This document shows, piece by piece, positions 283 to 16,675 of a DNA stretch of 16,905 nucleotides (positions are counted from its first letter, which is position 1; each line of letters opens with the position of its first letter). A model generated the notes under the pieces. The model ran no database searches. It was not told where the DNA came from and was given only the letters and a program-made list of their open reading frames with translations. The position numbers and the translations under genes are program-made. The stretch is from the NCBI GenBank assembly GCA_937876495.1, contig CALEGL010000180.1, positions 1 through 16,905 of the forward strand, given 5' to 3'. Origin of the DNA: an uncultured Bifidobacterium sp. GTDB lineage: Bacteria > Actinomycetota > Actinomycetes > Actinomycetales > Bifidobacteriaceae.

Positions 283-288
283 AGCCGG

Positions 289-317
289 ATTATGTCATCT
301 CATATGCTGAAACGCAA
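289..317 (-). promoter_or_regulatory. Promoter of the divergent IclR-like gene, leaderless geometry
   Basis: On the minus strand TTGCGT (317-312) is followed after exactly 17 nt by CATAAT (294-289). Six nt later comes the ATG at 282. Transcription starting about 7 nt after the -10 box would begin on the A of the ATG, giving a leaderless mRNA. There is no Shine-Dalgarno sequence before this ATG. A regulator bound in the 283-421 gap could affect both this gene and leuC. Confidence 0.5.
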
Positions 318-390
318 AAGTCCGCGAATGGACACCCCTGCCCATACTCGGGGGAAGAAGCGGTTCGCGCATCGGCGCGACCGGATCGTC

Positions 391-416
391 CGCGGGTTAG
401 GCCCGCGTCGAAGGAG
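391..416 (+). promoter_or_regulatory. leuC leader hairpin and ribosome binding site
   Basis: CGCGGG (391-396) and CCCGCG (402-407) form a 6-bp stem with the 5-nt loop TTAGG. The stem ends 3 nt before the strong Shine-Dalgarno AAGGAG (411-416), which sits 5 nt before the leuC ATG. A weak -10-like CATACT lies at 343-348 without a clear -35. The leader has no run of leucine codons, so a classical leader-peptide attenuator is not supported. The hairpin could modulate ribosome access, but that is inference. Confidence 0.35.
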
Positions 417-421
417 CACGC

Positions 422-1825
422 ATGGGAAGCACACTCGCCGAGAAGGTCTGGGCCGATCATCTGGTGCGGCGCGGAGAGAACGGCGCGCCCGACCTCATCT
501 ACATCGACCTCATGCTCATGCACGAGGTCACCAGCCCACAGGCGTTCGAGGGGCTGCGGCTGGCCGGTCGTCGGCCCCGCCATCCGGAGCTGCTCATCGC
601 CACCGAGGACCACAACACGCCCACGGTCGACATCGACAAGCCCAATCCGGACAAGACCTCCGCGGTGCAGCTGAGCACCTTGGAAAGGAACTGCAAGGAG
701 TTCGGGGTGCGGCTGCATCCGCTGGGCGACGCCGACCAGGGCATCGTCCACGCCTTCGCGCCCATTCTTGGCCTCACCCAGCCCGGCATGACCATCGTGT
801 GCGGCGATTCGCACACCTCCACGCACGGAGCCTTCGGCGCCCTCGCCTTCGGCATCGGCACCTCCGAGGTCGAGCATGTCATGGCCACGCAGACGCTGTC
901 CCTCAAGCCCTTCAGAACCATGGCGGTCAACGTCGAGGGGAGTCTGCCCGAAGGCGTGAGCGCCAAGGACGTCATCCTCGCCATCATCGCGAAGATCGGC
1001 ACCGGCGGCGGCCAGGGGCACGTCATCGAGTACCGCGGCGAGGCCATCCGGAACATGTCGATGGACGCGCGCATGACCATCTGCAACATGTCCATCGAAG
1101 CGGGCGCCAGGGCCGGCATGATCGCCCCCGACGAGACCACCTACGAGTATCTCAAGGGCCGTCCGCACGCCCCCGAGGGGGAGATGTGGGACCGCGCCAT
1201 GGAGTACTGGAGGACGCTGCGCACCGACGACGACGCCGTGTTCGACCGTTCGGTCGACATCGACGCCACGAAGCTCGCGCCCTACGTCACCTGGGGCACC
1301 AACCCCGGCCAGGGCCTGCCCATCACGGGGGCCGTCCCCGACCCCGCCGACATCGCTGACGAGGAGAGGCGCGCCGCCACCGAATCCGCCATCCGCTACA
1401 TGGGTCTGAAGCCCGGTATGCCCCTCAAGGACATCGCCGTCGACACCGTGTTCATCGGCTCCTGCACCAACGGGCGCATCGAGGATCTTCGGGCCGCGGC
1501 CTCCGTCATGAAGGGCCATCACAAGGCCAAGTCCATCCACCGCGTGCTTGTCGTGCCGGCCTCCTCCCGCGTGAGGCTGCAGGCGGAGCGCGAGGGACTC
1601 GACAAGGTGTTCCGGGACTTCGGCGCCGAATGGCGCAACGCCGGATGCTCGATGTGCCTCGGCATGAACCCCGACAAGCTCGTCCGCGGCGAGCGGTCCG
1701 TCTCCACCTCCAACCGCAACTTCGAGGGGCGCCAGGGCAAGGGGTCCCGCACCCATCTGGCCTCGCCCGTCGTCGCCGCGGCCACCGCCATCCGAGGGAC
1801 CATCAGCAGCCCCGCCGACCTGTAG
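422..1825 (+). CDS. leuC: 3-isopropylmalate dehydratase large subunit
   Basis: LeuC is the catalytic subunit of the LeuCD isomerase, which converts 2-isopropylmalate to 3-isopropylmalate in leucine synthesis in the cytoplasm. The protein has 467 residues, the usual length for LeuC. It carries the aconitase-family motif GDSHTSTHG at residues 128-136. The three cysteines that ligate the [4Fe-4S] cluster are C348 (in GSCTN), C409 and C412 (in CSMC). The C-terminal stretch with [12 protein letters not shown] is typical of the family. The start is set by AAGGAG 5 nt upstream of the ATG. leuD follows after 135 nt, and a probable IclR-type regulator is divergent, as in other actinobacteria. Nothing is truncated and all cluster ligands are present. 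Confidence 0.97.
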
Positions 1826-1900
1826 AGGTCCGTCCCCGCCACCGGCGCCCGGCGTCTCACGGGCGGCGGTCCTCACTGCCATCGGCCCGCACGTCGTATC

Positions 1901-1940
1901 GCAATCGTCGCAATCGTCAGTCGTCGCCGCCCTGGGCGGC
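1901..1940 (+). repeat. leuC-leuD spacer: 9-bp tandem duplication and hairpin
   Basis: The 135-nt gap between leuC and leuD holds two adjacent copies of GCAATCGTC (1901-1909, 1910-1918). They are followed by the 6-bp inverted repeat GCCGCC/GGCGGC (1926-1931, 1935-1940) with a 3-nt loop. The hairpin ends 20 nt before the leuD ATG and has no T run after it, so it is not a clear terminator. It might tune leuD translation or mRNA stability. Confidence 0.35.
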
Positions 1941-1960
1941 AGAAAGCACAGGTTCCCGAC

Positions 1961-2644
1961 ATGGAGAAACTTACCGTCGTCACCGGCGTGGGCGTTCCGC
2001 TCCGCCGCTCGAACGTGGACACCGACCAGATCATCCCCGCCGTCTTCCTCAAGCGCGTCACCAAGACGGGGTTCGAGGACGCGCTGTTCTACGCGTGGCG
2101 CCGCGACCCGGCCTTCATCCTCAACCAGCCTGAGTACAAGGGCGCGCGCATCCTCGTCGCCGGGCCGGACTTCGGCATCGGCTCCTCGCGCGAGCACGCC
2201 GTGTGGGCGCTGCGCGACTACGGCTTCCGCGTCATCATCAGTCCCCGCTTCGCGGACATCTTCTACGGCAACACGGCGAAGAACGGCGTCCTCGCGGCCA
2301 TCATGCCCCGGGAGAGCGTCGAGCTGCTGTGGAAGCTGCTTGAGGAGGAGCCCGGCCGCTCCATGACCGTCGACCTCGGGGCGCGCACCGTGACCTGCGG
2401 GGACGTGACCCTGCCCTTCGAGGTCAACGACTACACGCGGTGGCGCCTGATGAACGGCTATGACGACATCGACCTGACGCTTCAGCACGAGGACGACATC
2501 GTCGCCTACGAGAGGATGCGGGCCGAGCGCTTCCCCTTCAAACCGAAGACCCTTCCGGCGCGGCATCTCCCCGAACAGCCGATCGTCTCGGCCCGTGCTC
2601 CCAAGGAGGACGACTGGGCCGGTCCGCTGAGCGGCAGGTCCTGA
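1961..2644 (+). CDS. leuD: 3-isopropylmalate dehydratase small subunit
   Basis: LeuD is the swivel-domain subunit that combines with LeuC to form isopropylmalate isomerase. The protein has 227 residues, somewhat longer than the roughly 200-residue E. coli LeuD. The extra length is mostly a C-terminal tail after about residue 200. Family motifs are visible: [10 protein letters not shown] near residues 19-28, GIGSSREHA near 73-81, and [15 protein letters not shown] just beyond it. The start is the ATG that yields MEKLTVVTG, a normal LeuD N-terminus. The Shine-Dalgarno is weak, only ACAGG about 8 nt upstream, so translation may depend on the leuC transcript and nearby hairpin. A GC-rich stem-loop follows the stop. 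Confidence 0.96.
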
Positions 2645-2654
2645 GGCATCCCGC

Positions 2655-2676
2655 GCCCGGGCTGGAACGCCCGGGC
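2655..2676 (+). terminator. Stem-loop after leuD, probable terminator without T tract
   Basis: GCCCGGGC (2655-2662) is repeated as its own complement at 2669-2676, giving a perfect 8-bp stem with loop TGGAAC. It begins 11 nt after the leuD stop. The following bases are CCAAAG, not a T run. It may therefore be a weak intrinsic terminator or an mRNA 3'-end stabiliser. The next gene has its own -10 box 30 nt later, which supports a transcript boundary. Confidence 0.5.
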
Positions 2677-2705
2677 CCAAAGCGGTCCGGCATGACCGCG
2701 GACCC

Positions 2706-2742
2706 TATAATGAATCCGGCAGCACAGGAACGGGCTAAGGAG
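2706..2742 (+). promoter_or_regulatory. Consensus -10 box and Shine-Dalgarno of the Lrp-like gene
   Basis: A perfect TATAAT lies at 2706-2711. No good -35 or extended -10 TG is visible upstream. The predicted start of transcription is near 2718. The Shine-Dalgarno AAGGAG (2737-2742) lies 6 nt before ATG 2749. This fixes the start at 2749 and excludes the in-frame ATG at 2692, which lies upstream of the -10 box. Confidence 0.6.
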
Positions 2743-2748
2743 CGTCTT

Positions 2749-3027
2749 ATGGCCGATGCGGTTGTTCTCATCAATACGGAGGCGGACAGGATTTCCGAGG
2801 CGGCGCAGCGCATCGTGGAGATTCCCGGGGTCTCCGCGGTGTACTCGGTGGCCGGCGAGGTGGATCTCGTCGCCATCGTCTCCACGCCGAACTTCGACGA
2901 TCTGACGACGGTCATCCCCGATGGCATCGCCAAGGTCGACGGCGTCGTCGGCACCCAGACCCTCATGGCCTTCCGCCAGTACTCGGCCAAGGACGAGGCC
3001 GCGGCCTACGACCTTGGCGCGGACTGA
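2749..3027 (+). CDS. Stand-alone Lrp/AsnC ligand-binding (RAM) domain protein
   Basis: This 92-residue protein matches the C-terminal regulator domain of Lrp/AsnC proteins and has no helix-turn-helix. The RAM-type beta-alpha-beta-beta-alpha-beta pattern is visible: AVVLINTEA, a helix around residues 12-24, VSAVYSVAGEVDLVAIVST (about 28-46) and a second helix. The GxxDLVAIV stretch is characteristic. Full Lrp proteins are about 150 residues, so this is the domain alone, not a truncation: it has its own promoter and ribosome site. Stand-alone RAM proteins bind amino acids and can assemble as rings or pair with full Lrp regulators. Its place right after leuCD suggests sensing of leucine or a related amino acid, which is inference. 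The next gene starts 4 nt after the stop, so the two are probably co-translated. Confidence 0.85.
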   Translation: MADAVVLINTEADRISEAAQRIVEIPGVSAVYSVAGEVDLVAIVSTPNFDDLTTVIPDGIAKVDGVVGTQTLMAFRQYSAKDEAAAYDLGAD

Positions 3028-3031
3028 CGGC

Positions 3032-4333
3032 GTGAAGGCGGACGGCGTCCTTCCCTCGGGAGGCGCGCACCGCGATGGCGGCGACGGCGACGACTCCGCA
3101 TCCCGCTCGCCGTCGCCCTCGTCCTTCCCGCCGGCCACGTTCTACGACGTGACCCGCACCTACGAGGACAACTACGTCAACGGCCCCTTCGGGGCCTTCG
3201 CGGACTCCGGTCGGGCATCGACCGCGGCGGCCGCGCCGATGCCATCAGCTGGGGCGTATTCGCAACCGGTTTCGGTGGATGAGGCCTCCCCGAATGAGGC
3301 CTCCGTGGCGACGTTTCCCGCATCGTCGTCCTCCATGACGCATCTGCTCGGATTCCCCGTGCGCGTGCCCTTCGGCATCCCCGCGGGGCCTCTGCTCAAC
3401 TCGCGCTTCACTACCGCGGCCTTCCGGCACGGCTTCGACGTCGCCGTGTACAAGACCGTGCGTTCCCGCGCATGGCCATGCAATCCCTTCCCCAATGTGC
3501 TGGCCGTCCACCCGGCCGCCGCTGACGGGCAGCTCGACCCGCGCGGTTCCGAACCCGACGCCGGCGTGCTCGCCGACCGCTCCTACGCGAATCCTCCATC
3601 CATCTCGAACTCCTTCGGCGTGCCCTCGCGCGACCCCGACGTCTGGCAGCCCGACATGCGCGACGCCATCGCCGCCGCCGGCTCTGGGCAGCTTCTCGTT
3701 CCCAGCTTCCAGGGCTCCCGCACCCCCGACATGGACGCCGATGACTACGTCGCCGACCATGTGCGCACCGCGCGCCTGGTCTGCGAGACGGGCGCGCGTC
3801 TCATGGAGATGAACACCAGCTGCCCCAACGAGGGCCACAATCGTCTGCTGTGCCACGATCCGCGGCTGGTGGGCCGCATCGCCGAGGATGTGAAGAACGA
3901 GATCGGTGACCGGCCTCTCGTCGTCAAGCTCGCGTGGCTTCCCGACGACGCCTCGCTGGAGCTTATGGTCCGGTCCACCGCCGCCCGCGGGCTCGTCCAG
4001 GGCTTCGCCACCATCAACACCATCTCCGCCCGGCTGATCGATTCCCGAGGAAGGCAGGCGCTTCCGGGAGATGGCCGCGAACGAAGCGGGGTGTGCGGGG
4101 ACGCCATCCGCGATGCGGGACGGGACATGGTGCGGCGCCTCGCCGCCATCCGCGAGCGGCTGGGCCTCGACTTCGTTATCGTCGGCGTCGGTGGGGTCGT
4201 CTCCGCCGGCGATTATCTCGATTACCGCCAAGACGGCGCCGACGCGGTGATGAGCGCCACCGGGGCCATGGCCGATCCGGAGCTCGGGCATCGGGTGGCG
4301 GCCGTCGCGGGCGTCGCGCACGGCGGGCGGTGA
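3032..4333 (+). CDS. Dihydroorotate-dehydrogenase-like FMN flavoprotein (class 1 type)
   Basis: The family is FMN-binding TIM-barrel oxidoreductases of the dihydroorotate/dihydropyrimidine dehydrogenase group. Visible landmarks, counted from GTG 3032, are FYDVTRTYEDN (from about residue 37), K141 in YKTVR, NTSCPNEG with N261 and C264, K299 in VVKLAW, TINTIS, and the phosphate-binding glycines G387-G388. A cysteine as catalytic base (C264) is the class 1 pattern; class 2 quinone-linked enzymes use serine. The protein would have 433 residues, longer than the roughly 310 of class 1A. The excess is an N-terminal tail and an Ala/Ser/Pro-rich insertion at about residues 61-103. GTG 3032 was chosen because it lies 4 nt after the preceding stop and no ATG precedes the conserved N-terminus, but no Shine-Dalgarno is clear. 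The true substrate may not be dihydroorotate, so no gene symbol is given. Confidence 0.82.
   Translation: MKADGVLPSGGAHRDGGDGDDSASRSPSPSSFPPATFYDVTRTYEDNYVNGPFGAFADSGRASTAAAAPMPSAGAYSQPVSVDEASPNEASVATFPASSSSMTHLLGFPVRVPFGIPAGPLLNSRFTTAAFRHGFDVAVYKTVRSRAWPCNPFPNVLAVHPAAADGQLDPRGSEPDAGVLADRSYANPPSISNSFGVPSRDPDVWQPDMRDAIAAAGSGQLLVPSFQGSRTPDMDADDYVADHVRTARLVCETGARLMEMNTSCPNEGHNRLLCHDPRLVGRIAEDVKNEIGDRPLVVKLAWLPDDASLELMVRSTAARGLVQGFATINTISARLIDSRGRQALPGDGRERSGVCGDAIRDAGRDMVRRLAAIRERLGLDFVIVGVGGVVSAGDYLDYRQDGADAVMSATGAMADPELGHRVAAVAGVAHGGR
3279..3304 (+). repeat. 15-bp-period duplication inside the flavoprotein insertion
   Basis: ATGAGGCCTCC occurs at 3279-3289 and again at 3294-3304, a period of 15 bp. 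In frame it encodes EAS-PN-EAS within the low-complexity insertion of the dihydroorotate-dehydrogenase-like protein. Because 15 is a multiple of three, copy-number change would alter length without breaking the frame. Confidence 0.5.
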
Positions 4334-4357
4334 TCGCGGGGAATGATGCGCTGAGGA

Positions 4358-4384
4358 CGGATGGTTCCATCCGAATCATCGGAT
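4358..4384 (+). terminator. Overlapping alternative hairpins after the flavoprotein gene
   Basis: CGGATGG-TT-CCATCCG (4358-4373) is a perfect dyad beginning 25 nt after the stop. ATCCGA (4369-4374) can instead pair with TCGGAT (4379-4384) across the loop ATCA. The two hairpins share ATCCG and so exclude each other. No T run follows. The site may be a weak terminator or an attenuator ahead of murA. The rest of the 308-nt gap to murA holds only the motif listed at 4515-4539. Confidence 0.35.
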
Positions 4385-4514
4385 TGCGCGCGATCGTCTT
4401 CCGAACCATCTCGCCGCTGGATCATAGGCATGCGATTCGGGTTCCGTCCTCCCGAGATGCGCAGCGCCGCGACCCTCCTCCGCCTGCGGCTCAAAAACGG
4501 CATTTCACGGGGTC

Positions 4515-4539
4515 GCCACAACCCATGTGGCACGATAAC
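4515..4539 (+). promoter_or_regulatory. Candidate murA promoter with adjoining 6-bp dyad
   Basis: GCCACA (4515-4520) and TGTGGC (4526-4531) form an inverted repeat around ACCCA. A -10-like GATAAC (4534-4539) lies 2 nt further on. There is no convincing -35 at 17 nt. The arrangement resembles an operator overlapping a promoter and would leave a 5' leader of about 95 nt before murA. The call is weak. Confidence 0.3.
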
Positions 4540-4641
4540 CGTAGTGAGGTCGCGCCTGAGTGGGACGCGACGACGCCGTGTCCGGCGGCCGCGTGGCGGC
4601 ACGGCACGGCACGCAGCGAGACGAAGAGGGGTTCGAGACAG

Positions 4642-5967
4642 ATGGTCGACACCGACAGCGATGTGCTTCACGTCGAGGGCGGCAAGCCGCTTCAGGGCAC
4701 GATCAAGGTGCGTGGGGCGAAGAACTTCGTGAGCAAGGCCATGGTCGCCGCGCTGCTTGCCCCCGGTGTGTCGGTGCTGAGGAACGTCCCCGAGATCCGC
4801 GACGTCCACGTCGTCTCCGACCTGCTCCGCCTGCACGGGGTCGATGTGGCCTTCGATGGCAAGGCGGGGGTCGTCACGATCGACGCCACGCATGTGCAGC
4901 TCGCCGACGTCGCCGACGTCGACACGCTGTCCGGATCCTCGCGCATCCCCATCCTCTTCTCCGGACCGCTGGTCCACCGCCTTGGCGAGGCCTTCATCCC
5001 CGCGCTCGGCGGATGCAACATCGGCGGACGGCCCATCGACTTCCATCTTGAGACGCTGCGCAAGCTGGGCGCCACCGTCGACAAGGAGCACACCGACGGC
5101 ATCCACATCACCGCCCCCAACGGCCTGCACGGCGCCAAGATCCACCTGCCCTACCCGTCGGTGGGCGCCACCGAGCAGACGCTGCTCGCCGCCGTCCTCG
5201 CCGACGGCAAGACCGAGCTGTCGGGCGCGGCCATAGAGCCCGAGATCATGGACCTCGTCGCAGTGCTGCAGAAGATGGGCGCCATGATCTCCGTGGACGT
5301 CGACCGCACCTTCCGCATCGAGGGCGTCGAGAGGCTGAAGGGCTTCACTCACACGGCCCTCACCGACCGCATCGAGGCCGCGTCCTGGGCGTCGGCGGCG
5401 CTCGCCACCCACGGCGACATCTTCGTGCGCGGCGCGGAGCAGGCCGACATGATGACGTATCTCAACGTCTTCCGCAAGGTCGGGGGCGAGTTCGACGTCA
5501 CCGACGACGGCATCCGCTTCTGGCATCCGGGCGGCGACCTGCATCCCGTCGCCATCGAGACCGACGTGCATCCCGGCTTCATGACCGACTGGCAGCAGCC
5601 GCTCGTCGTGGCCCTCACCCAGGCGCACGGCCTGTCGATCGTGCACGAGACCGTCTACGAGAACCGATTCGGCTTCACCGAGCCCCTGGTGGCGATGGGC
5701 GCGACCATCCAGCTGTACCGCGAATGCCTGGGGTCGCTGCCGTGCCGTTTCCAGCAGCGCAACTACAAGCATTCGGCCGTGATCTTCGGACCCACCCCGC
5801 TCACCGGGCGGGACATCGACGTGCCCGACTTGCGCGGCGGGTTCAGCCACCTCATCGCCGCCCTGGCGGCCTCCGGCCCCTCGAACGTCCACGGCATCAG
5901 CCTCATCGACCGCGGCTACGCCGACTTCCGTGGCAAGCTCGAGGCCCTCGGAGCCGACATCGACTGA
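4642..5967 (+). CDS. murA: UDP-N-acetylglucosamine 1-carboxyvinyltransferase
   Basis: MurA transfers enolpyruvate from phosphoenolpyruvate to UDP-GlcNAc, the first committed step of peptidoglycan synthesis in the cytoplasm. The protein has 441 residues, close to E. coli MurA (419), with a slightly longer N-terminus. Conserved residues include K27-N28 in RGAKN, C125 in GGCNIGGRPID, D316 in TDWQQ and R398 in DLRGGF. C125 is the loop cysteine that fosfomycin alkylates. Mycobacteria and chlamydiae have Asp there and are resistant, so this enzyme should be fosfomycin-sensitive at the target level. The start ATG follows a GAAGAGG sequence about 12 nt upstream, which is a long spacing. No gene follows on the same strand for 2.5 kb. 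Confidence 0.96.
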   Translation: MVDTDSDVLHVEGGKPLQGTIKVRGAKNFVSKAMVAALLAPGVSVLRNVPEIRDVHVVSDLLRLHGVDVAFDGKAGVVTIDATHVQLADVADVDTLSGSSRIPILFSGPLVHRLGEAFIPALGGCNIGGRPIDFHLETLRKLGATVDKEHTDGIHITAPNGLHGAKIHLPYPSVGATEQTLLAAVLADGKTELSGAAIEPEIMDLVAVLQKMGAMISVDVDRTFRIEGVERLKGFTHTALTDRIEAASWASAALATHGDIFVRGAEQADMMTYLNVFRKVGGEFDVTDDGIRFWHPGGDLHPVAIETDVHPGFMTDWQQPLVVALTQAHGLSIVHETVYENRFGFTEPLVAMGATIQLYRECLGSLPCRFQQRNYKHSAVIFGPTPLTGRDIDVPDLRGGFSHLIAALAASGPSNVHGISLIDRGYADFRGKLEALGADID

Positions 5968-6411
5968 GGTCGGTCGGGCCGCGACCCGCCCGGACGTCGT
6001 CTCGTCGGTCTCCCTGTCCTCTCCGTCCCACCGGTCTTGCCGTTTCCGAATCGGCAATGAAGCCTCCCGCCCACCTCTTCTGACTCGCTGACTCGGCCCG
6101 TGGCATCCTCGCCTTCCTGGGCCAGCGATGGGCCAGCTCACCTGTGACGGGCATGGCGTCGGATTCCGCTCTCTGGCGGGCGGAGGTCGTTTCCCGGTTC
6201 CTGGGAATCGTTCGCGGCGGACGCGGTCATCGGCGCACGGAGAGAGGGCGTATGGAGAGGGGTCGACGGCGTGCCGGGCGTTCCGTGAAATCCGGTTCCC
6301 GGAAGGTCGGTGGCTTCACGGGTTGTGGCGGCGTATGGGGGACGTTCGACGGCTATGAATCCGATCATGCGGTCATCCGTCGGGTCCCCGCCTCGTACGG
6401 TGGACGTTCGT
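5968..6411. other. Non-coding stretch after murA
   Basis: No open frame here has family features or a ribosome site. Two weak inverted repeats are visible: TTGCCG/CGGCAA (6037-6042, 6052-6057, loop 9) and TTCCC/GGGAA near 6191-6207. GGACGTTCG occurs twice (6340-6348, 6402-6410), the second copy ending just before the heptamer array at 6412. I see no tRNA and no strong terminator for murA. Confidence 0.5.
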
Positions 6412-6569
6412 TGGGCAGAAAAAACACCGTGTGGGCAGCCGTGTTCTGTTCTGGGCAGACTTCCCGGTAGACGAGGCATGGCGGCCTTGACAATCCAGGG
6501 TTCTTCCGTGAGAAGAAGGGACATTTCCCGGTTGAACTGCCCAATGAATGAAGGATTGGAGTCGGTACC
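6412..6569 (+). repeat. Left copy of an unrecognised element: three TGGGCAG at 20-nt period, spacer, CTGCCCA box
   Basis: TGGGCAG occurs at 6412-6418, 6432-6438 and 6452-6458, exactly 20 nt apart. A 78-nt spacer follows, holding the hairpin TTCTTC/GAAGAA (6501-6506, 6512-6517). Then CTGCCCA (6537-6543) opens a 33-nt box ending at 6569. The right copy at 8220-8041 is in the opposite orientation and shares the array, its period and 24 of 33 box positions, including the first 13 (CTGCCCAATGAAT). The spacers are not alike. The 20-nt period is not a multiple of three, which argues against coding in the array. It could be a structured RNA, a DNA operator set or a mobile-element end. I do not recognise the family. 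Confidence 0.75.
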
Positions 6570-6830
6570 CCGCTGATCGTCCCGTTGTCGGTGTTTTGGT
6601 TCCGGGTCGGTGGGGGTTTCCTGGTTGCGATTGTTTCCTGGTTGTCCCGGTTACGGGCGGTGAGGCCGCTGCCGGTTCGTGCGAATCCGGGTCATGCGCA
6701 ACTCTCGGAACTCTCCGTCGGAATTCCTGTGGCATGATCCCGGCTTGAGGAACTCTGCTTCAGACACCGCCGAACCATCGGACAGCCGGATGCGGAGGAA
6801 GGGGACGTGACGCTGCGATGCGGCCATGCA
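6570..6830. other. T-rich non-coding stretch with a 12-bp direct repeat
   Basis: No credible gene is present. GTTTCCTGGTTG occurs at 6616-6627 and 6633-6644 (17-nt offset). The plus strand is G/T-rich here, unlike the neighbouring genes. The stretch lies downstream of the minus-strand nuclease gene, whose end carries the short palindrome AGGAGCTCGCTCCT (6833-6846). That could act as a weak 3' hairpin. Confidence 0.45.
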
Positions 6831-7655
6831 TCAGGAGCTCGCTCCTCGAAGCCGCGCATGGATGATCATAAGAAGGAACTCGGTGAATCTTCTTTCGTCA
6901 TTCAGGACATCCTTCACTGCGACGAGGACGGTCCATCCCAGATCCTGCAGCCTGTTGCGCTTGCGCAGATCGCTTCTCCAGCGATGCCGGTCATAGTGGT
7001 ATTCGCCGTCGTATTCGATGGCGACGCGTTCCGGCGGATAGGCCATATCAACGCGCCAGACGGTCGAGGCGTCGATGTCGGGAATCTCATGGTTGACAAG
7101 TGGACAGGGAAGACCTGCGCCGATCATTCTCAGACGAAGCAACGTCTCCTGAGGGGAGTCCGTACCCGGGACGCTTCTGGACAGCGCCGCTCGGCACCGG
7201 CGGATTCCCGGGAAGCGTCCGAAACCGTCAATGGCCTCCCGGAGCCGCTGGGGGGTGCTTTGTCTCAGATCGGCGTTCGCACAGGTCAGCCAATCCATGA
7301 TCATCGTCAGGGAATCCTGGTCCGTATAGCGGGCCATCTGACAGACCGCCTGCTCCACCGAGACGCCGTCGATGAGATCGTCTATGACGGTTCTCTCCAT
7401 GCGATTCGTCCAGAGGTGATTCTGCACCCCGTAGAGATGGGATTTGCCTCCCATGGAATTCGAGGTGATATGCAACCGACTCGTGTCGAGTTCTGTGGAA
7501 GGTCTCAGCGTCATACCTCGGAGTTCCAGAAGCGTGAGATGGCTGAAGACGAGCCGCCTATGCGTGCGTTGTGCCGCGGCGCGGCAGAGCAGGTGAGTCC
7601 GGGCGGCGTGTTCGCGAGCGACGTCCAGAGTGAAGAATCCCGTCGTGGCTGGCAT
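6831..7655 (-). CDS. AbiEi-like / DUF559-type PD-(D/E)XK nuclease-domain protein
   Basis: This 274-residue protein matches a common actinobacterial family. The N-terminal half resembles the AbiEi antitoxin-type regulator core (VFSHLTLLELRGMTL, then RMERTVIDDL). The C-terminal half is a Vsr/DUF559-like endonuclease fold. Candidate catalytic residues are E170 in SPQE, D203 in VDMAYP, E214 and D216 in EYDGEYH, and H220. A basic stretch, RWRSDLRKRN, follows. The usual N-terminal winged helix appears shortened. The start ATG 7655 lies 7 nt after a -10-like TACCAT; GTG 7661 is in frame but sits too close to it. No partner toxin gene is adjacent, so it is an orphan. It is the only credible gene in the 5968-8516 island and is flanked by the inverted heptamer elements. 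Its biological role is unknown; defence or a selfish element is inference. Confidence 0.78.
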   Translation of the reverse strand: MPATTGFFTLDVAREHAARTHLLCRAAAQRTHRRLVFSHLTLLELRGMTLRPSTELDTSRLHITSNSMGGKSHLYGVQNHLWTNRMERTVIDDLIDGVSVEQAVCQMARYTDQDSLTMIMDWLTCANADLRQSTPQRLREAIDGFGRFPGIRRCRAALSRSVPGTDSPQETLLRLRMIGAGLPCPLVNHEIPDIDASTVWRVDMAYPPERVAIEYDGEYHYDRHRWRSDLRKRNRLQDLGWTVLVAVKDVLNDERRFTEFLLMIIHARLRGASS

Positions 7656-7662
7656 CGGCACG

Positions 7663-7668
7663 ATGGTA
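7663..7668 (-). promoter_or_regulatory. -10 box of the nuclease gene, leaderless geometry
   Basis: TACCAT (7668-7663, minus) lies 7 nt before ATG 7655, so the transcript would start at or next to the start codon. No Shine-Dalgarno and no clear -35 are seen. Confidence 0.35.
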
Positions 7669-8040
7669 GGCGATGACGGATTCCGGAGGATCGGATCGTG
7701 CCGTCGGTGGATGAGAGCGGGATTGAATCATGTCATCGGGGACGAGTGCGAGCCGGATTCGCGTGGTCGGCCGAAGGGCGGCGCTTTCTGGTGTTTCTGC
7801 GAATCCCGGTTTCTTTGTTCGTCTGTGTTTCTATGGCCCCGTGGTTCTTGCCCTGTGAACAGAGGCTGTTGCTGCAGATACGGTGATGGCTTTGCGGGGG
7901 TCGTCGCCTTGTCCCTCGCGTCCTTTTCAAGTTTCCCCGTTCCTCCTCCGTCCGTCCCCGGAAGAGCACCCCCGAAGAAGTTTCTTCGAAATCCGCTGTG
8001 GTGGGGTTCAGGGGATGATTATCTTGCTTTGGTGAGGCGT
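7669..8040. other. Non-coding, lower-GC stretch upstream of the nuclease gene
   Basis: The plus strand is T-rich and visibly lower in GC than the flanking genes from about 7780 to 8060. Open frames here show no recognisable protein features. One clear palindrome stands out, CGAAGAAGTTTCTTCG (7973-7988), with 7-bp arms and a 2-nt centre. It looks more like a protein-binding dyad than an RNA hairpin. It lies 53 nt beyond the conserved box of the right-hand element. Confidence 0.45.
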
Positions 8041-8220
8041 GGTTCCGACCTTTCACCCTTATTCATTGGGCAGCCGAATGGTGGGTATGCGAAGACGTGG
8101 ATGGTCATGAGATGCAGAATCGTTGGAATCTCGCCATTCCAGGAATCGTGGATTCTAATGATACTTGGGGATGCCGCCCAGGAGGCGTTTGGACTGCCCA
8201 ATGGATGCAAGGACTGCCCA
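8041..8220 (-). repeat. Right copy of the heptamer element, inverted relative to the left copy
   Basis: On the minus strand TGGGCAG (8220-8214), TGGGCAG (8200-8194) and TGGGCGG (8180-8174) are spaced exactly 20 nt apart. A 100-nt spacer follows, then CTGCCCA (8073-8067) opens the 33-nt box that ends at 8041. The spacer contains nested inverted repeats: AGAATC (8116-8121) with GATTCT (8151-8156), and inside it TGGAAT (8124-8129) with ATTCCA (8136-8141). The A-to-G change in the third heptamer still pairs with CTGCCCA in RNA through a G-U pair. The element lies upstream of the nuclease gene on the same strand, with its box about 390 nt before that start. Confidence 0.75.
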
Positions 8221-8294
8221 GCTTGTGCTGATGTGGGCCGGCGATGCGTGCGGGGGGACATGCGGCGATGGGTTCGCCTGCAACCACAACAAAC

Positions 8295-8392
8295 GGGTCG
8301 GTGATGCGCGGGTCGGTGATGCGCGGGTCGGCGATGCATATGAGGGATGCGCGGGTCGGTGATGCGCGGGAGCATGCGGGTCGGTGATGCGC
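8295..8392 (+). repeat. 15-bp tandem/dispersed repeat upstream of plsC
   Basis: The unit GGGTCGGTGATGCGC occurs perfectly at 8295, 8310, 8353 and 8378, with a degenerate copy at 8325 (three mismatches). The first three are contiguous; short spacers separate the others. The array ends about 125 nt before plsC. No credible protein uses it, although 15 bp keeps any frame open. It is a likely variable-number tandem repeat. Confidence 0.8.
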
Positions 8393-8504
8393 TGGTGTGT
8401 GGGCGTGCGGGATGCCGGCATATATCGATCATCGACGGATGACGCCGGTCGTGGGCCGGACGGGGACAGAGGCGACGACGGACCCTGCCATCGACGGCGT
8501 GCGG

Positions 8505-8510
8505 CACAAT
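8505..8510 (+). promoter_or_regulatory. -10 box of plsC, leaderless geometry
   Basis: CACAAT (8505-8510) is followed by 6 nt and then ATG 8517, placing the expected transcription start on the A of the ATG. GGGGG at 8511-8515 is only 1 nt from the ATG, too close to serve as a Shine-Dalgarno. No strong -35 is seen. Confidence 0.4.
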
Positions 8511-8516
8511 GGGGGC

Positions 8517-9410
8517 ATGACTTCCAAAGGCAGACCCTCGCCGCGGTCCTCCGTCAGCCCGCTGTCCGACGCGCAGGTGCGACGGCTCGCCGAACGCCAT
8601 GACCTCGTCGATCCGACCCGCTACTACCCGACCGGGCCCCGCACACCGAACGCGACGGAGATCGAGGCCCAGAACCCCGGGGCGACGCGCTTCCTCCTCG
8701 GAGCCGTCTCCGTCACGCTGCGCTCGCGCAGCCGGATCCGCGCCTGGGGACTGGAGAACGTCCCGGAGACAGGCCCCTTCATCACGGCCGCCACGCATGT
8801 GACCATGTACGACGTCTTCGTGCCGATGATGGCGCTGTTCCATATGGGTCGCCGCCCGCGCTTCATGGCCAAGGCGGAGCTCGGCCACTGGCCGGTCGTC
8901 GGCCCATGCCTGGGGCTCGTGGGCATGCAGTCGGTGCCGCGCCGCAGCGGGAAGGCGAAGGCCATCGAGGAGGAGTCGGTCCGGATTCTCACCTCCGGTC
9001 GCCCCCTGACCATCTGGCCGGAGGGGACCCTCACCCGCGACCCGAAGAAATGGCCGATGAGCCTCAAGGACGGCGTGGGCTTCATCGCCCTCGAGGCCTC
9101 GCGTCGCCTCGGTCGCCAGATTCCGCTGTTCTGCTCGATCACCTGGGGGGCGGCGAGCATCAACCAGTGGTGGCCGTGGCCACGCAGGAACATCGTCATG
9201 TGCTACGACGACCGGCTGGACTACGCCGATCTTCTCGGCGACGTCGACGCCTGGGGCGCCGAGCCTCCCGTCGAGGCGGTCCGCGAGCTCACCTGGCGCA
9301 TCCGAGAGCGGATGGAGGCTGTGGAGTCCGAGATCCGCGGCGAGGAGCCGCCGGCCGAGGGGTACTGGGACTACCGGACGATGAGCCGGGCGCCGAGGCG
9401 TCGTCCCTGA
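8517..9410 (+). CDS. plsC: 1-acyl-sn-glycerol-3-phosphate acyltransferase family protein
   Basis: PlsC-type enzymes add the second acyl chain to lysophosphatidate, making phosphatidate at the inner face of the membrane. The 297-residue protein shows the acyltransferase signature HX4D with H94 and D99 (HVTMYD). It also has the substrate-binding EGT motif at E169-T171 (PEGTLTR). PRRSGKAKAIEEE between them fits the family. A region around residues 50-65 may be a membrane-associated helix. The N-terminus (about 45 residues, basic and Ser/Pro-rich) is longer than in minimal PlsC. ATG 8517 was chosen because a -10 box ends 6 nt upstream. gpsA, which makes the glycerol-3-phosphate substrate of this pathway, follows after 151 nt. 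Acyl-chain and acceptor specificity cannot be read from the sequence. Confidence 0.9.
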   Translation: MTSKGRPSPRSSVSPLSDAQVRRLAERHDLVDPTRYYPTGPRTPNATEIEAQNPGATRFLLGAVSVTLRSRSRIRAWGLENVPETGPFITAATHVTMYDVFVPMMALFHMGRRPRFMAKAELGHWPVVGPCLGLVGMQSVPRRSGKAKAIEEESVRILTSGRPLTIWPEGTLTRDPKKWPMSLKDGVGFIALEASRRLGRQIPLFCSITWGAASINQWWPWPRRNIVMCYDDRLDYADLLGDVDAWGAEPPVEAVRELTWRIRERMEAVESEIRGEEPPAEGYWDYRTMSRAPRRRP

Positions 9411-9561
9411 TGCGTCCCGGCCGCATCCCGACGGCCTCGACGTCCGACCCACGTACAGGCCGTCGGCGTAGCATGGCCAAGGCGTCGCCGAGGCCGACGA
9501 GACGGATGAACGGCGACGGCGTGATGACCACGGCATCGTCCATCGAAGGAGCGGAGACGGC

Positions 9562-10557
9562 ATGAGGGTGACGGTTCTGGGCGCGGGCGCCTGGGGAACG
9601 GCGTTCGGACAGGTTCTGGCCGATGCGGGCAACGAGGTCGTCATGTGGGCCAAGGAGCCCGAGATCGTCGCCGCGATTCGTGACGGGCATGGCAACCCCT
9701 TCCGCCTGCCCAGCGTGGATCGGCTGCCGGACGCCATGACGGCCACCGGGGATCGCGCCGAGGCGGTCGAGGGGTCCGAGCTGGTCGTCGTGGCCATCGC
9801 CGCCCAGTTCGCGCGCGTGGCGCTGGAGCCCTTCCGAGGACTCATCCTCGGGGACGCCGTGGTGGCGTCTCTGATGAAGGGCATCGAACGCGGGACCGAC
9901 AGGCGGATGGACGAGGTCGTGCGCTCGGCGCTTGACCTGCCCGTCGAGCGCTTCGCGGCTATCTCGGGGCCGAATCTCAGCAAGGAGGTGGCCGCGCGCC
10001 AGCCGGCCGCGACCGTGGTCGCCTGCGCCGACATCGACGTCGCCCGCCGCGTGGCCGAGGCCTGCACGACGGACTACTTCCGCGCCTTTGTCAGCCGTGA
10101 CGTCATCGGCCTGGAGATGTGCGGGTCGCTGAAGAACGTCGTCGCGCTCGCCGTGGGCATGGTGCGCGGCGCCGGATACGGCGAGAACACCGCGGCGATG
10201 GTGGAGACCCGCGGCTTGGCCGAGCTCACGGCCCTCGGCACCGCGGCGGGCGCCGATCCGCGCACCTTCGCGGGCCTTGCCGGCGTCGGCGACCTCGTCG
10301 CGACCTGCGGGTCGCCGCTGAGCCGCAACTACACCTTCGGCGCCAATCTCGGACGCGGGATGAGCGTCGAGGAGGCCACGAAGGCCAGCAACGGCGTGGC
10401 GGAGGGCGTGCCGACCACTGCGGCGGTCATTGGACTGGGCGACCGTCTCGGCGTTCCCACGCCTCTGGCCTCGGCCATGGGCCGCGTGCTGGAGGAGGGC
10501 ATCCCCTGCTCTCGGATGCTCTCGCTGCTTTTTGATGAAGGCATAGGGGAGGAGTAG
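9562..10557 (+). CDS. gpsA: NAD(P)-dependent glycerol-3-phosphate dehydrogenase
   Basis: GpsA reduces dihydroxyacetone phosphate to sn-glycerol-3-phosphate, the backbone for phospholipids, in the cytoplasm. At 331 residues it has standard length. The Rossmann dinucleotide motif GAGAWG is at residues 7-12. SGPNLSKEVA near residues 134-143 is the family signature. The catalytic lysine is K191 in CGSLKNV. GLAGVGDLVATC near 234-245 and SRNYTFG are also typical. The Shine-Dalgarno GAAGGAGCGGAG begins 17 nt before the ATG. A -10-like TAGCAT lies at 9469-9474 in the gap after plsC, so gpsA may have its own promoter as well as read-through. No key residue is missing. Confidence 0.97.
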   Translation: MRVTVLGAGAWGTAFGQVLADAGNEVVMWAKEPEIVAAIRDGHGNPFRLPSVDRLPDAMTATGDRAEAVEGSELVVVAIAAQFARVALEPFRGLILGDAVVASLMKGIERGTDRRMDEVVRSALDLPVERFAAISGPNLSKEVAARQPAATVVACADIDVARRVAEACTTDYFRAFVSRDVIGLEMCGSLKNVVALAVGMVRGAGYGENTAAMVETRGLAELTALGTAAGADPRTFAGLAGVGDLVATCGSPLSRNYTFGANLGRGMSVEEATKASNGVAEGVPTTAAVIGLGDRLGVPTPLASAMGRVLEEGIPCSRMLSLLFDEGIGEE

Positions 10558-10683
10558 CGCGGCTTCCGTTCCGGGAATCGCGCCGCGAGTAGGCTTCTTC
10601 TCGAGTGGATCCGATGCACGGGACGGACGGGAAGTCTTACGGGCCGTGCACGGGTCGAGCCGGTCGGATGGGTCGAACGGGTC

Positions 10684-10728
10684 AAAGGTCATAGGGTCAT
10701 AAGGCCATAAGGCCATAAGGCCATAAGG
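10684..10728 (+). repeat. 8-bp tandem repeat in the ddl leader
   Basis: The unit ATAAGGCC is repeated from 10699 to 10728 (3.75 perfect copies). Degenerate copies precede it (ATAGGGTC 10691-10698, AAAGGTC 10684-10690). It ends 13 nt before ddl. Each unit contains CATAAG, which resembles a -10 box, and the last copy overlaps the ribosome-binding region with GAGG at 10734-10737. Slippage would move promoter or leader elements in 8-nt steps without touching the coding frame. Confidence 0.8.
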
Positions 10729-10741
10729 AAGCGAGGACGAC

Positions 10742-11875
10742 ATGGTCACCAAGCGGATCGCGGTGCTGTACGGCGGGAGAAGCGACGAGCATTCCATCTC
10801 CTGCATCTCGACGGCAGGCGTGCTGGGAGCCATGGATGCGTCACGATTCGAGGCCGTTCCCATCGGCATCACGAAGTCGGGTCGCTGGCTGGTGGGTGGC
10901 CCCGATCCGCGCGGTTTCCGCATGGATGGTGATGCTCTCCCCGTCGTGGAGCCTGGTGAGGGCACCCGCGACGTGGTGCTCGACCCGTCGCGAGGCCGCG
11001 ACGGATTCCTCGTCAGAGGGGATGACGGCTCACTGGATTCGCTGGGGCATATCGACGCCGTGTTCCCCGTGCTCCACGGACCCTACGGGGAGGACGGAAC
11101 CATCCAGGGTCTGCTGGAGATGATGGGGGTGCCCTACGTCGGCTGCGGCGTATTTGCCTCGGCGGCCTGCATGGACAAGCATTTCACGAAGCTGCTGCTT
11201 GCGGCTGCGGGGATTCCCGTGGCGCCGGGCATTACCGTGGACACCCGCGAGCTGAACCTCCATGACCCCGCGACGGGTGAGGGCCTGGTCGCCCGCGTTC
11301 GTGAGGCGTGTCTGCATTACCCGTTGTTCGTCAAGCCCTCACGCGCCGGATCAAGCTTCGGCGTGACGAAGGTCGACGTTGAGGATCCGGCCGCCCTGGC
11401 CGCGGCCGTGCGCACCGCCGCCCCCCATGACTGGAAGGTGCTCGTCGAGCAGGGGGTGGCCGGCCGCGAGATCGAGTGCGCGGTGCTGGCGCCCCGGTCC
11501 ACGGACGAGCCCGCGGCCAGCTGGCCCGGCGAGATCGTCCTTGACCGTCGCTCCGCCGACGCCGACCAGTTCTATGACTTTGACAGCAAGTACGTCGACT
11601 CCGCCGCCTCGCATGTCGAAGTCCCCGCCCATCTGCCCGAGGAGACGCTCCGGCGCGTCCAGGAGGTGGCGGTCAGGGCCTTCCGCGCGGTGGACGGCTC
11701 GGGGCTGAGTCGCGTGGACACTTTCGTGTCCTCCGACGGCACGGTGACGGTCAACGAAATCAACACCATGCCCGGCTTCACGCCGATCTCCATGTATCCG
11801 CAGGCCTGGCAGGCCACGGGCGTAGACTACACCGAGCTCATCAGCCGCCTGCTGGACGGCGTCCTGAAAGGGTGA
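10742..11875 (+). CDS. ddl: D-alanine--D-alanine ligase
   Basis: Ddl joins two D-alanines using ATP, giving the dipeptide for the peptidoglycan stem. The ATP-grasp protein has 377 residues, in line with actinobacterial Ddl. Motifs in order are LYGGRSDEHSIS (residues 9-20), VFPVLHGPYGEDG, the nucleotide-binding PLFVKPSRAGSSFGV, the omega loop with K283-Y284 (FDSKYVDSA), and the metal-binding NEINTMPGFTPISMYP near the C-terminus. A lysine-tyrosine pair in the omega loop is typical of true D-Ala-D-Ala ligases rather than VanA-type D-Ala-D-lactate ligases. This predicts vancomycin-sensitive precursors. The ATG is preceded by GCGAGG 5 nt upstream. The next gene starts 7 nt after the stop. The leader carries an 8-bp tandem repeat. 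Confidence 0.97.
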   Translation: MVTKRIAVLYGGRSDEHSISCISTAGVLGAMDASRFEAVPIGITKSGRWLVGGPDPRGFRMDGDALPVVEPGEGTRDVVLDPSRGRDGFLVRGDDGSLDSLGHIDAVFPVLHGPYGEDGTIQGLLEMMGVPYVGCGVFASAACMDKHFTKLLLAAAGIPVAPGITVDTRELNLHDPATGEGLVARVREACLHYPLFVKPSRAGSSFGVTKVDVEDPAALAAAVRTAAPHDWKVLVEQGVAGREIECAVLAPRSTDEPAASWPGEIVLDRRSADADQFYDFDSKYVDSAASHVEVPAHLPEETLRRVQEVAVRAFRAVDGSGLSRVDTFVSSDGTVTVNEINTMPGFTPISMYPQAWQATGVDYTELISRLLDGVLKG

Positions 11876-11882
11876 TGCCTTC

Positions 11883-12980
11883 GTGAGCGAAGCGATGCCG
11901 CCGTCGATGCAGCCGGATCAGCCGCCAAGGAACCAGCGGCAGGAGTCGCAGGACGATTCGGCGCAGCCCGCGCCCATGGATGCATCCCGCCCTCGTCGTC
12001 CCGACTGGTGGTTCGTCATCCATCGTCGGTTCTCCCTGGTCGGCGTGGCGCTGTGCGTGATGCTGCTCGTCTGGATCGCCCTGCAGCTGCTGGCGCTGGG
12101 AGCGATGAAGCTGTGGCTGCCTTCCACGTCGACGGTTCCGACATGGCTGACCCTGCTGTCCTCCAGCGGGCCGCTGTATCTCATCGCGATGCCGCTGGCC
12201 ATCGCCGTGCTGGCCAGGGTTCCGAAGGCGCGCACACGGTCGTTCTCCATGCCCGCCGGGGAGTTCCTGCGTCTGCTCGTCGTCTGCCTTCCGCTGATGT
12301 ACGCGGGGAGCCTCATCGGCACCACGCTGTCCGACCTGATCACCGGGGGAACGGCGGTCAATGGCGTGGCCGACCTCATCACCGGATCCGACACCCTCAC
12401 CTCGCTGGTGTTCATGGTGCTGCTGGCCCCGGTCTTCGAGGAGTGGATGTTCCGCCGGCAGATCATCGACCGTCTGCGGGCCTACGGCGAGCGCACGGCC
12501 ATCCTCGTCTCGGCGCTGGCGTTCGCCCTGTTCCATCTCAACCTCTACCAGTTCTTCTACGCCTTCGCACTGGGTCTCGTGTTCGGCTACGTGTACACGC
12601 GAACCTCGAAGCTGCGCTATTCGGTGGCCATGCATATGATCATCAATCTCAACGGCTCCGTCGTCGCGCCGTGGATCGTCTCGCTGCTGGGCGGGAAGGT
12701 CCTCAAAGCCCTGGACTCCGGGTCGATCGAGGAGATGGAGGCTGCCGTGATGGCGAACGGGTCCGGAGTGGCGGCCTACATGGCCTATGCGCTGGCGATG
12801 ATGGCCCTGGTCGTCCTGGGCATCGTGGTTCTGGTCCGTGACCGCCGGCGCGTCGAGTTCTATCCGGCTCCCCTGGAGCTGCCGAAGGGGCTGCGGCTGC
12901 GCACGGCGCTGCTCAACCCGGGCATGGTGACCTATGCGGTGCTGTGTGTGACTGTGACGGCGATCGTCCTGTTCGTGTGA
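11883..12980 (+). CDS. CPBP-family (CAAX-like) intramembrane metalloprotease
   Basis: This is a polytopic membrane protein of the CPBP/Abi family (365 residues). The metal-site motifs are complete: E186-E187 and R191 in FEEWMFRR, H218 in FALFHL, and H251 with N255 in MHMIINLN. About eight hydrophobic segments span residues 48 to the C-terminus. The first 45 residues are hydrophilic, rich in Gln, Pro and Ser, and probably cytoplasmic. The start is GTG 11883, 7 nt after the ddl stop, with GAAAGGG within the end of ddl as a ribosome site. ATG 11895 is an alternative. Family members cleave or process peptides and membrane proteins, some for bacteriocin self-immunity; the substrate here is unknown. 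Coupling to ddl suggests a cell-envelope role, which is inference. Confidence 0.88.
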   Translation: MSEAMPPSMQPDQPPRNQRQESQDDSAQPAPMDASRPRRPDWWFVIHRRFSLVGVALCVMLLVWIALQLLALGAMKLWLPSTSTVPTWLTLLSSSGPLYLIAMPLAIAVLARVPKARTRSFSMPAGEFLRLLVVCLPLMYAGSLIGTTLSDLITGGTAVNGVADLITGSDTLTSLVFMVLLAPVFEEWMFRRQIIDRLRAYGERTAILVSALAFALFHLNLYQFFYAFALGLVFGYVYTRTSKLRYSVAMHMIINLNGSVVAPWIVSLLGGKVLKALDSGSIEEMEAAVMANGSGVAAYMAYALAMMALVVLGIVVLVRDRRRVEFYPAPLELPKGLRLRTALLNPGMVTYAVLCVTVTAIVLFV

Positions 12981-13029
12981 CGATGTCCTCGCGTCCCTGA
13001 GCCTTCGGCCGCCGACGTCGTCTTGCCCG

Positions 13030-13052
13030 ATCCGAAGGACGCCGAATCGGAT
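13030..13052. terminator. Inverted repeat between convergent genes, possible bidirectional terminator
   Basis: ATCCGA (13030-13035) and TCGGAT (13047-13052) form a 6-bp stem with an 11-nt loop. It sits in the 207-nt gap between the convergent CPBP protease and MscS genes, where termination is expected on both strands. No T run is seen in either direction, so the call rests on position and symmetry only. Confidence 0.3.
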
Positions 13053-13187
13053 GGCCGCGTTCCTCGGATCCGGCGTCCATTCGTGACGATTCCCGAGGCA
13101 TGCCGGATTGCGGGGATCATGGCCGCCGGGCCGTGGGCGCTGCGACGACCGGGATGATGATGGTGATGGACCGGAACCGCGGCGGTT

Positions 13188-13973
13188 TCAGGCGCCTGTC
13201 GCCGCCCTCTGCTCGATGAAGTCGCAGTCCGCCAGCGCTCGCACGACCGCATCCCTCACGGTGGAGGGCAGCACGCCGGGGCGCGCGAAGACGAGCACCT
13301 TCCCTTCGATGCCATAGGGGGAGAAGCCGGAGAAGCGCACCAGCGGCGGGTTCTTCTCCTCGGCGATGTCCTTCGTGGCGGCCTGCGCGGCGGCGATGAC
13401 CTTCGCTTCGATGTCGGAGACGCTGCTGCCGGCCCTGGCCGTGAACGGGATGTCGACGTAGGCCTCGTTGCCGGGGATGAGACGCTCGAGCGCGGCTTTG
13501 TTGATCACGGAGTTGGGGATGACCAGCCGGTTGCCGTTGCGTTCGACGAGCACGGTCTGCCGCCAGGTGATGTCGCGCACGACGCCCGTCGAGCCGGCCA
13601 CGCTCACCAGGTCGCCGGGATGGATGACATGCCCCATCATGAGGCCGAATCCGCCGATGATGTTGGCGATGGTGTCCTGCAGACCGAGGGAGATGGCGAG
13701 ACCGCCTATGCCGAGGGCCGTGACGAGGGTCGTGGGGTTGATCCCGAACACCGGCTGAAGCACGATCGCCACGGCCAGCGTCCAGATGAGCACCCTGGCG
13801 AGATTGATGAAGATCGACACGCTGGGGATTTGCGATCGGTCGAGAGCTCGTCGCAGCAGACGGCTGACGATCTTCGCGACCACCGCCGCGGCGATGATGA
13901 CGATGACCAGCATGAGCAGCCGGTCCGCGTGGGAGGACAGCCAGGAGGCGATCCGTTCCGTTGTCTTTTCCAT
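13188..13973 (-). CDS. Small-conductance mechanosensitive channel, MscS family
   Basis: MscS channels open under membrane tension and release solutes on hypo-osmotic shock. The protein has 261 residues, near the 286 of E. coli MscS. Hydrophobic segments lie at about residues 18-36 and 50-75. The pore-lining helix follows at about 82-112 and is rich in Gly and Ala (TALGIGGLAISLGLQD, then IIGGFGLMM). The beta domain follows with IHPGDLV and VERNGNRLVIPNS. The ATG overlaps the stop of the upstream deaminase gene by one base (TGATG), so the two are translationally coupled. The C-terminal alpha/beta domain is present though short. It is the last gene of a three-gene minus-strand operon. Confidence 0.92.
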   Translation of the reverse strand: MEKTTERIASWLSSHADRLLMLVIVIIAAAVVAKIVSRLLRRALDRSQIPSVSIFINLARVLIWTLAVAIVLQPVFGINPTTLVTALGIGGLAISLGLQDTIANIIGGFGLMMGHVIHPGDLVSVAGSTGVVRDITWRQTVLVERNGNRLVIPNSVINKAALERLIPGNEAYVDIPFTARAGSSVSDIEAKVIAAAQAATKDIAEEKNPPLVRFSGFSPYGIEGKVLVFARPGVLPSTVRDAVVRALADCDFIEQRAATGA

Positions 13974-15136: not shown

Positions 15137-15245
15137 GATTCCATCATCGTCCTTCCTGGGAGGCTTGACGGATCGGTTCCCCTCCGCCGGCCCTTCACGC
15201 CGCCTCCCGCCGCCGGAGCGGTCCGTCGATTCCGTGCCGTCCATA

Positions 15246-16448: not shown

Positions 16449-16663
16449 GCGCCTGAGCCTTCCGATGCGTTGTCCGTTTTCGTCAGTCTGCGGTTCGGGC
16501 GGCCGCCCCTCGTCGGCGAGGGCGTTCGGCGGCCGTGGACCGTATCCCTCCCATGGTGTCGGAGGACGGTTCCTTCATCATCGTATCCGTGTTGCGCAGT
16601 CCGGAACGGTGAAGCGTCAGTGGGCTTTCGCCCGGCGGGAAGACTCCGCACGGCGAAGGTCGA

Positions 16664-16669
16664 TACAGT
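16664..16669 (+). promoter_or_regulatory. -10 box of the right-edge gene, leaderless geometry
   Basis: TACAGT (16664-16669), then 6 nt, then GTG 16676. Expected transcription would begin on the GTG. No Shine-Dalgarno precedes this GTG or the in-frame ATG 16682. No clear -35 is visible. Confidence 0.35.
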
Positions 16670-16675
16670 TGTCGC

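Follow-up and report, generated by a model that had tools for sequence, protein, structure and literature searches.

What are two facing copies of a repeat array doing around a single nuclease gene in bifidobacterial DNA? The question is raised by a 16,905-nucleotide stretch from an uncultured Bifidobacterium sp. (contig CALEGL010000180.1 of GenBank assembly GCA_937876495.1, positions 1 to 16,905), referred to here as the window, whose genome is assembled in 343 contigs and is 82.7% complete. In the window, a gene for a 276-amino acid nuclease (6831..7661, minus strand) lies between two inverted copies of an element built from 7-nt units repeated every 20 nt. Both copies are probably DNA elements cognate to the nuclease that lies between them, in an enzyme-repeat pairing similar to that of repetitive extragenic palindromes (REP) and REP-associated tyrosine transposases (RAYT), with a PD-(D/E)XK nuclease replacing the Y1 transposase.

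The left array consists of three TGGGCAG units placed 20 nt apart from start to start (6412..6458, plus strand), and the right array of TGGGCAG, TGGGCAG, and TGGGCGG at the same distance (8174..8220, minus strand). The pattern TGGGCRG-N13-TGGGCRG is matched four times in the window, twice on the plus strand (6412-6438 and 6432-6458) and twice on the minus strand (8220-8194 and 8200-8174), versus a mean of 0.00 and a largest count of 0 in 200 dinucleotide shuffles. This confirms an earlier sequence-only reading, which had described three TGGGCRG heptamers at an exact 20-nt period in both copies. The spacers that follow the arrays are also of the lengths then claimed, 78 nt in the left copy and 100 nt in the right by their coordinates. 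Beyond each spacer, an inverted unit, CTGCCCA, opens a box whose first 13 bases, CTGCCCAATGAAT, match exactly between the copies, as had been reported (6537..6549, plus strand, with the box extending to ~6569; 8061..8073, minus strand, with the box extending to ~8041). The box pair 6537-6573 / 8037-8073 spans 37 nt and is 73% complementary. Since relatives carry several inverted units at a 20-nt period, the box is best read as a single inverted array unit. Each window element has three direct units and one inverted unit. The spacer of the right element also contains a near-palindrome, AATGGCGAGATTCCAACGAT (8119..8138, minus strand), with three mismatches to a core found across the genus, AAYGKYGGAATTYCAACGTT; the best match to this core in the left flank of the nuclease has seven mismatches, so that a left core is not recognizable. 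Short degenerate tandem repeats, GATGCGCGGGTCGGT, lie immediately outside the right array (8288-8395). A plasmid search with the island (blastn, distant setting) returned no match.

The C-terminal domain of the nuclease is predicted to be Vsr/homing-endonuclease-like (DUF559 / MTES_1575) and of the PD-(D/E)XK type, as judged from Pfam matches to PF18741 (5.4e-05) and PF04480 (0.0013), both under the curated cut-offs, from an AlphaFold2 (AF2) model with a predicted local distance difference test (pLDDT) score of 91.7, and from structural matches. Its N-terminal half is possibly AbiEi-like. In a tree of sampled nucleases, the window nuclease and those of seven other loci in six other genomes form a clade of eight with a support of 1.0; three members, G030c, G014, and G115, were examined because of their position in the tree. 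Next to each of the eight sampled genes lies one element or more in which units spaced 20 nt apart are accompanied by inverted partners, and the linkage of nuclease and element is well supported for this subclade. A fixed link to DUF559 genes, which the sequence-only reading had named as a supporting sign, is thereby found among the sampled members, and of the three options it had offered (ends of a non-autonomous mobile element, a pair of regulatory RNAs, or the partner of the nuclease protein) the last fares best.

Within this one subclade, the unit sequence diverges along with the nuclease. The unit types are TGGGCRG, TTAAGCA, TAGGCAG, TTAGGTA, TTAGGCA, and CCGTAGG, and the 20-nt spacing, whose conservation had been in question, is kept among nucleases 45-54% identical to that of the window. 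Elements occur on both sides of the gene in G000, G077, G017a, and G110, and on one side, always downstream of the gene, within the flanks examined in G030c, G017b, G014, and G115 (the G115 elements were read by eye, and its scan has four mismatches). In G077, inverted GTAGGCA units at a 20-nt period stand on both sides of the nuclease. G017 encodes a 48% identical nuclease elsewhere in its genome with CCTAGG/CTTAG arrays on both sides, and a second nuclease with TCCGTAG arrays on one side. Several elements of the subclade keep their arrays and have no clear core.

Arrays of the window type also occur apart from this nuclease. A check for further copies in the window genome found one more inverted pair, on contig C76 (L021), which is of the same build with one mismatch allowed: TGGGC-type units at a 20-nt period, a spacer of ~100 nt, and then CTGCCCAA, with no evident gene between its two halves. 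Among 189 genomes of the family, a search for three YGGGCRG units was positive in four, including the window genome. G044 and G055, taken as sister species because their flank identities are mostly 88-98%, have elements in which as many as six CGGGCGG units at a 20-nt period are followed by a spacer of ~116 bp and then an inverted array. The G124 match appears to be a tandem repeat of another kind. One pattern scan of contigs also returned two stretches, one in a Gemmatimonadetes metagenome-assembled genome and one in Siculibacillus, which were taken as chance, neither having been inspected.

The spacer often holds a conserved near-palindromic core. The sequence AAYGKYGGAATTYCAACGTT (a core of ~20 bp), common to the spacers of G044/G055-type elements, has the shape of a 7-bp inverted repeat with a 6-bp middle. 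It is present at two or fewer mismatches in 109 of 112 genomes of the genus, with few matches to a reversed control. In an order-wide draw at one mismatch, it was found in 28 of 396 genomes, which by row count are 18 of the 22 from the genus, none of the 13 from the rest of the family, and 10 of the 361 remaining ones. At 125 core sites, which were collected and are not a random sample, inverted flank matches exceed the 95% point of a cross-genome null in 63 and the 99% point in 35. The inverted arms are frequently equidistant from the core and vary both between genomes and between loci.

Cores were also observed in several other settings. In seven genomes of the genus (L063, L070, L077, L090, L150, L160, and L169), a core without clear arms lies, by eye, just upstream of an ettA-like ABC-F ATPase gene, where it is possibly a conserved regulatory site. 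At L079, L080, L096, L110, L134, L088, L097, and L159, the core is close to the 3′ end of a tRNA-Ser gene (anticodons GGA, GCT, and CGA), in some cases with an integrase gene alongside. Three near-identical cores of G014 (L164, L165, and L166) share a context that resembles an rRNA operon leader by eye, and in G495 a core element is present in three near-identical tandem copies with a 202-bp spacing (L116, 1006-1429). Upstream of plsC in G021, G027, and G113 (L243, L272, L288, and L289) is a core element with GGGAGTTTA arms; these stretches gave no nuclease match, and in G021 the gene between the element and plsC reads by eye as a HAD-type hydrolase. The exact core was also found in 16 viral or proviral stretches (L176-L191), several of which adjoin tRNA fragments or integrase genes; as their G+C content ranges from 0.28 to 0.65, the core perhaps extends beyond Actinobacteria. 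An att-site reading of the core was dropped because arm identity followed the nuclease. A 30-base core query against named phages and plasmids returned 51 and 40 records with best E values of 0.6 and 2, which were taken as chance; the set of 40 counts one Bifidobacterium plasmid, not itself inspected.

DUF559-type nucleases are present in several copies each in many of the genomes searched, and flank comparisons were extended to this wider family. Because orthologous flanks in sister genomes inflated an initial flank null, it was replaced by later comparisons. In a first set (locus length limit 3,000), left and right flanks matched with a score of at least 25 at 24 of 49 nuclease loci versus 0 of 30 plsC control loci, a score-based count in which not every match was inspected for a palindromic build. 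The core at three or fewer mismatches was present in 12 of 98 nuclease flanks versus 0 of 56 plsC flanks, a control that leaves out L242 and L243, which hold known elements; in a second set it was present in 3 of 56. A loose 7-mer scan at period 20 was not discriminating, as 43 of 100 flanks of nuclease genes passed it and so did 15 of 56 control flanks, and it was replaced by a two-plus-two scan. At period 20, the latter was passed by 9 of the 100 nuclease flanks, as against 4 of the 56 controls, and at the other periods from 14 to 27 by 0-5 of each. The four passing controls are G077's own element, a run of N, what looks like a solo GTTAAGT element near plsC in G101, and a weak match. Just upstream of plsC in G101 lies an array element that has GTTAAGTGGGTGC units at a 20-nt period and no gene (L254, ~1219-1510).

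The flanks of nuclease genes and the gene-less elements of the same or sister genomes have sequence in common. When gene-less cores were compared with same-clade nuclease flanks, 35 of 343 comparisons exceeded the 99.9% cross-clade level; at least two of these are the syntenic L051 locus and not dispersed copies. For example, CGGGCGG elements from both G044 and G055 match the flanks of a single nuclease of G044, and elements of the types TCGCATGCAATTC and TCGCACGTAATTC match those of nucleases from G436 and G495 (another family). The window genome has one pair of dispersed gene-less copies, that at L021. Of seven G055 elements compared with G044, three are at syntenic sites with changed arrays, and two are missing from an otherwise aligned G044 site: L052, ~395 bp in length and flanked by ~55-bp direct repeats, and L056, ~513 bp in length with ~4 bp shared at the empty site. 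The site of L054 holds other sequence in G044, and L055 is at a rearrangement. These alignments show element turnover, in which either state may have come first.

How might such elements work? Their anatomy comprises inward-facing 20-bp-spaced units, a spacer of ~60-116 bp, and at least one inverted unit. From this anatomy and by analogy with the REPtron, we infer that the nuclease may bind, cut, and mobilize its elements. The variable N-terminal half would bind the units on one helix face, so placed that two sets of protein could meet over the core, and the Vsr/homing-type domain would then cut or nick the DNA in or close to the core. When the cut is repaired or copied, the element could be duplicated, leaving the gene between copies and allowing gene-less copies to disperse. 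Somewhat more tentatively, at less than even odds, these elements may represent a new selfish or domesticated class, in which a Vsr/homing-type PD-(D/E)XK nuclease uses a fast-evolving N-terminal domain to recognize arrays of its own with 20-bp spacing, acts at a genus-shared core, and spreads gene-less copies through the chromosome, with paralogues each keeping a separate element family in one cell.

Several observations weigh against the proposed pairing of nuclease and element. The window elements themselves fail the two-plus-two scan, as they have three direct units and one inverted unit, and the left/right flank score of the window locus is 18, below the thresholds used. Half of the subclade (4/8) has elements on one side only. 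The first set of flank comparisons included genomes chosen for many elements, and in the second (20 genomes, 62 nuclease matches, and 30 loci, with a length limit of 3,300 and L368 and L384 excluded as too short), a flank score of at least 25 was reached at only 3 of 28 nuclease loci (Fisher p 0.11 versus control). Pairing is therefore no rule for the whole family; some lineages commonly have matched two-sided flanks, and others lack them. Loci were taken for a part of the nuclease matches (20 in one set, 30 of 43, and 30 of 62). Elements resemble each other more where their nucleases do (r -0.36 over 436 pairs of 31 elements, permutation p 0.0002), a correlation carried mainly by three pairs. 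Armless cores occur at recurrent chromosomal places, near tRNA-Ser genes and, by eye, upstream of an ABC-F gene. In G019, armed cores are present and no nuclease was detected. Finally, the empty sites could be losses and not pre-insertion states.

The main rival explanation is operator control. Here, the AbiEi-like N-terminal half would be a repressor that binds the 20-bp units and regulates the nuclease gene itself, with gene-less elements extending this control to other genes; the nuclease domain would act elsewhere, in defence or plasmid control, and nothing would move. This is troubled by the elements that lie only downstream of the gene, and it is considered unlikely, though it merits more credence than any other alternative. 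An origin as tyrosine recombinase sites, with an att-like core and arm sites akin to the mobile integrase cassette (MIC) or recombinase-in-trio (RIT) elements, would agree with the inverted-repeat shape of the core, the symmetric arms, and the cores beside integrase genes at some loci; MIC ends, as described in PMC2430713, likewise have a 20-bp palindrome and a repeat-containing inverted repeat. However, the two PF00589 matches in the genome are both on contig C107 and none is on the window's contig, the MIC palindrome differs in sequence from the core, and arm identity tracks the nuclease in the cases tested, in a comparison made against nucleases. Recombinase sites are very improbable. Also very improbable is that the genus core marks chromosome-architecture or general regulatory sites beside which nucleases accumulate, making the nuclease link secondary; the near-universal occurrence of the core in the genus and its armless copies at recurrent places favor this, but several subclade elements keep arrays without a clear core and the unit follows the nuclease lineage. 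Least probable of all is that each copy gives rise to a structured regulatory RNA, an idea of the sequence-only reading that is weakly supported by inverted units able to pair and by folding slightly better than 200 shuffles (z -1.95 and -2.13, with 7 and 4 shuffles equally good), but that is opposed by an Rfam 15 scan of the window with nothing above gathering (two weak matches, 5853-5927 and 9493-9552, are both outside the elements), by core half-sites whose two variants combine without kept complementarity (a limited point, as the search pattern fixes one half), and by unit spacing kept while unit sequence changes with the nuclease.

The nuclease gene is the single recognizable gene between the two copies, in a gap between a murA-like gene with an EPSP synthase fold on the left (4642..5967, plus strand; PF00275, 3.7e-63 on the longer frame 3934-5967, start by eye) and a plsC-like acyltransferase gene on the right (8517..9410, plus strand; PF01553, 6.9e-20). 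The idea that the nuclease is an intruder peculiar to the window genome does not hold, as the murA-plsC gap of G077 holds the gene of a 54% identical nuclease, with its relative orientation unchanged.

The description of the element as unrecognized agrees with the literature searched, which covered few subscription papers: no paper was found that named such elements with DUF559 or contained the 15-letter core string, and none of the four papers matching a 12-letter core piece is about bifidobacteria by title. A term search of the RepRanger paper gave no mention of DUF559 or Bifidobacterium. The lineage-specific arrays found with all sampled members of the subclade give DUF559-type nucleases candidate recognition sites and a direct test. 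If the favored pairing of nuclease and element is true, REP-like populations of enzyme plus repeat would have emerged around an enzyme of unrelated chemistry, and a likely source would be at hand for some intergenic palindromes of the genus.

Among known systems, I-Bth0305I (PDB 3r3p) is a homing endonuclease of Vsr-like fold, whereas the nuclease described here differs in its N-terminal half and has repeats adjoining its gene. In comparison with the type IV AbiE antitoxin (AbiEi), a nuclease domain is fused here, and no AbiEii-like partner was recognized in the murA-plsC gap, where other frames were not profile-scanned. Where a miniature inverted-repeat transposable element (MITE) of a DDE insertion sequence would have a short target-site duplication of fixed length, the empty site of L056 shares ~4 bp and L052 has direct repeats of ~55 bp. 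The MIC of B. longum and RIT elements are alike in combining a 20-bp palindrome with inverted repeats, and MIC is also from Bifidobacterium. According to PMC2430713 and PMC3414803, however, they carry three tyrosine recombinase genes; none was detected on the window's contig, and no three adjacent ones were found in the genome at its 82.7% completeness, the two PF00589 matches being ~13 kb apart. The MIC palindrome, TTAAACCGACATCGGTTTAA, is unlike the core as judged from the printed sequences, TTAAACCGACATCGGTTTAA not having been searched in the window.

The closest likeness is to the REPtron or REPIN-RAYT system, which, according to PMC3116915 and PMC8266576, combines an enzyme with cognate repeats, inverted pairs as the unit, dispersed gene-less copies, and repeats that co-evolve with the enzyme. 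Cognate inverted repeats flank the gene, on at least one side, in 8/8 sampled members of the subclade (four on both sides), though not family-wide (3/28), and dispersed gene-less copies are represented by the L021 pair here and by the 35/343 same-clade pairs for other nucleases. The REPtron enzyme is a HuH Y1 transposase (TnpA-REP), whereas the window gene encodes a DUF559/MTES_1575, Vsr-like PD-(D/E)XK nuclease, and REPtron repeats are palindromes of 20-40 bp, whereas the elements here are ~100-500 bp in length with 20-bp-spaced arrays and, often, a shared core. REPtron repeats are also marked by a GTAG/GGAG tag next to a short hairpin. The arrangement is real, recurrent, and two-part; it is REP/RAYT-like in its logic, and its enzyme is unrelated, placing it outside that family.
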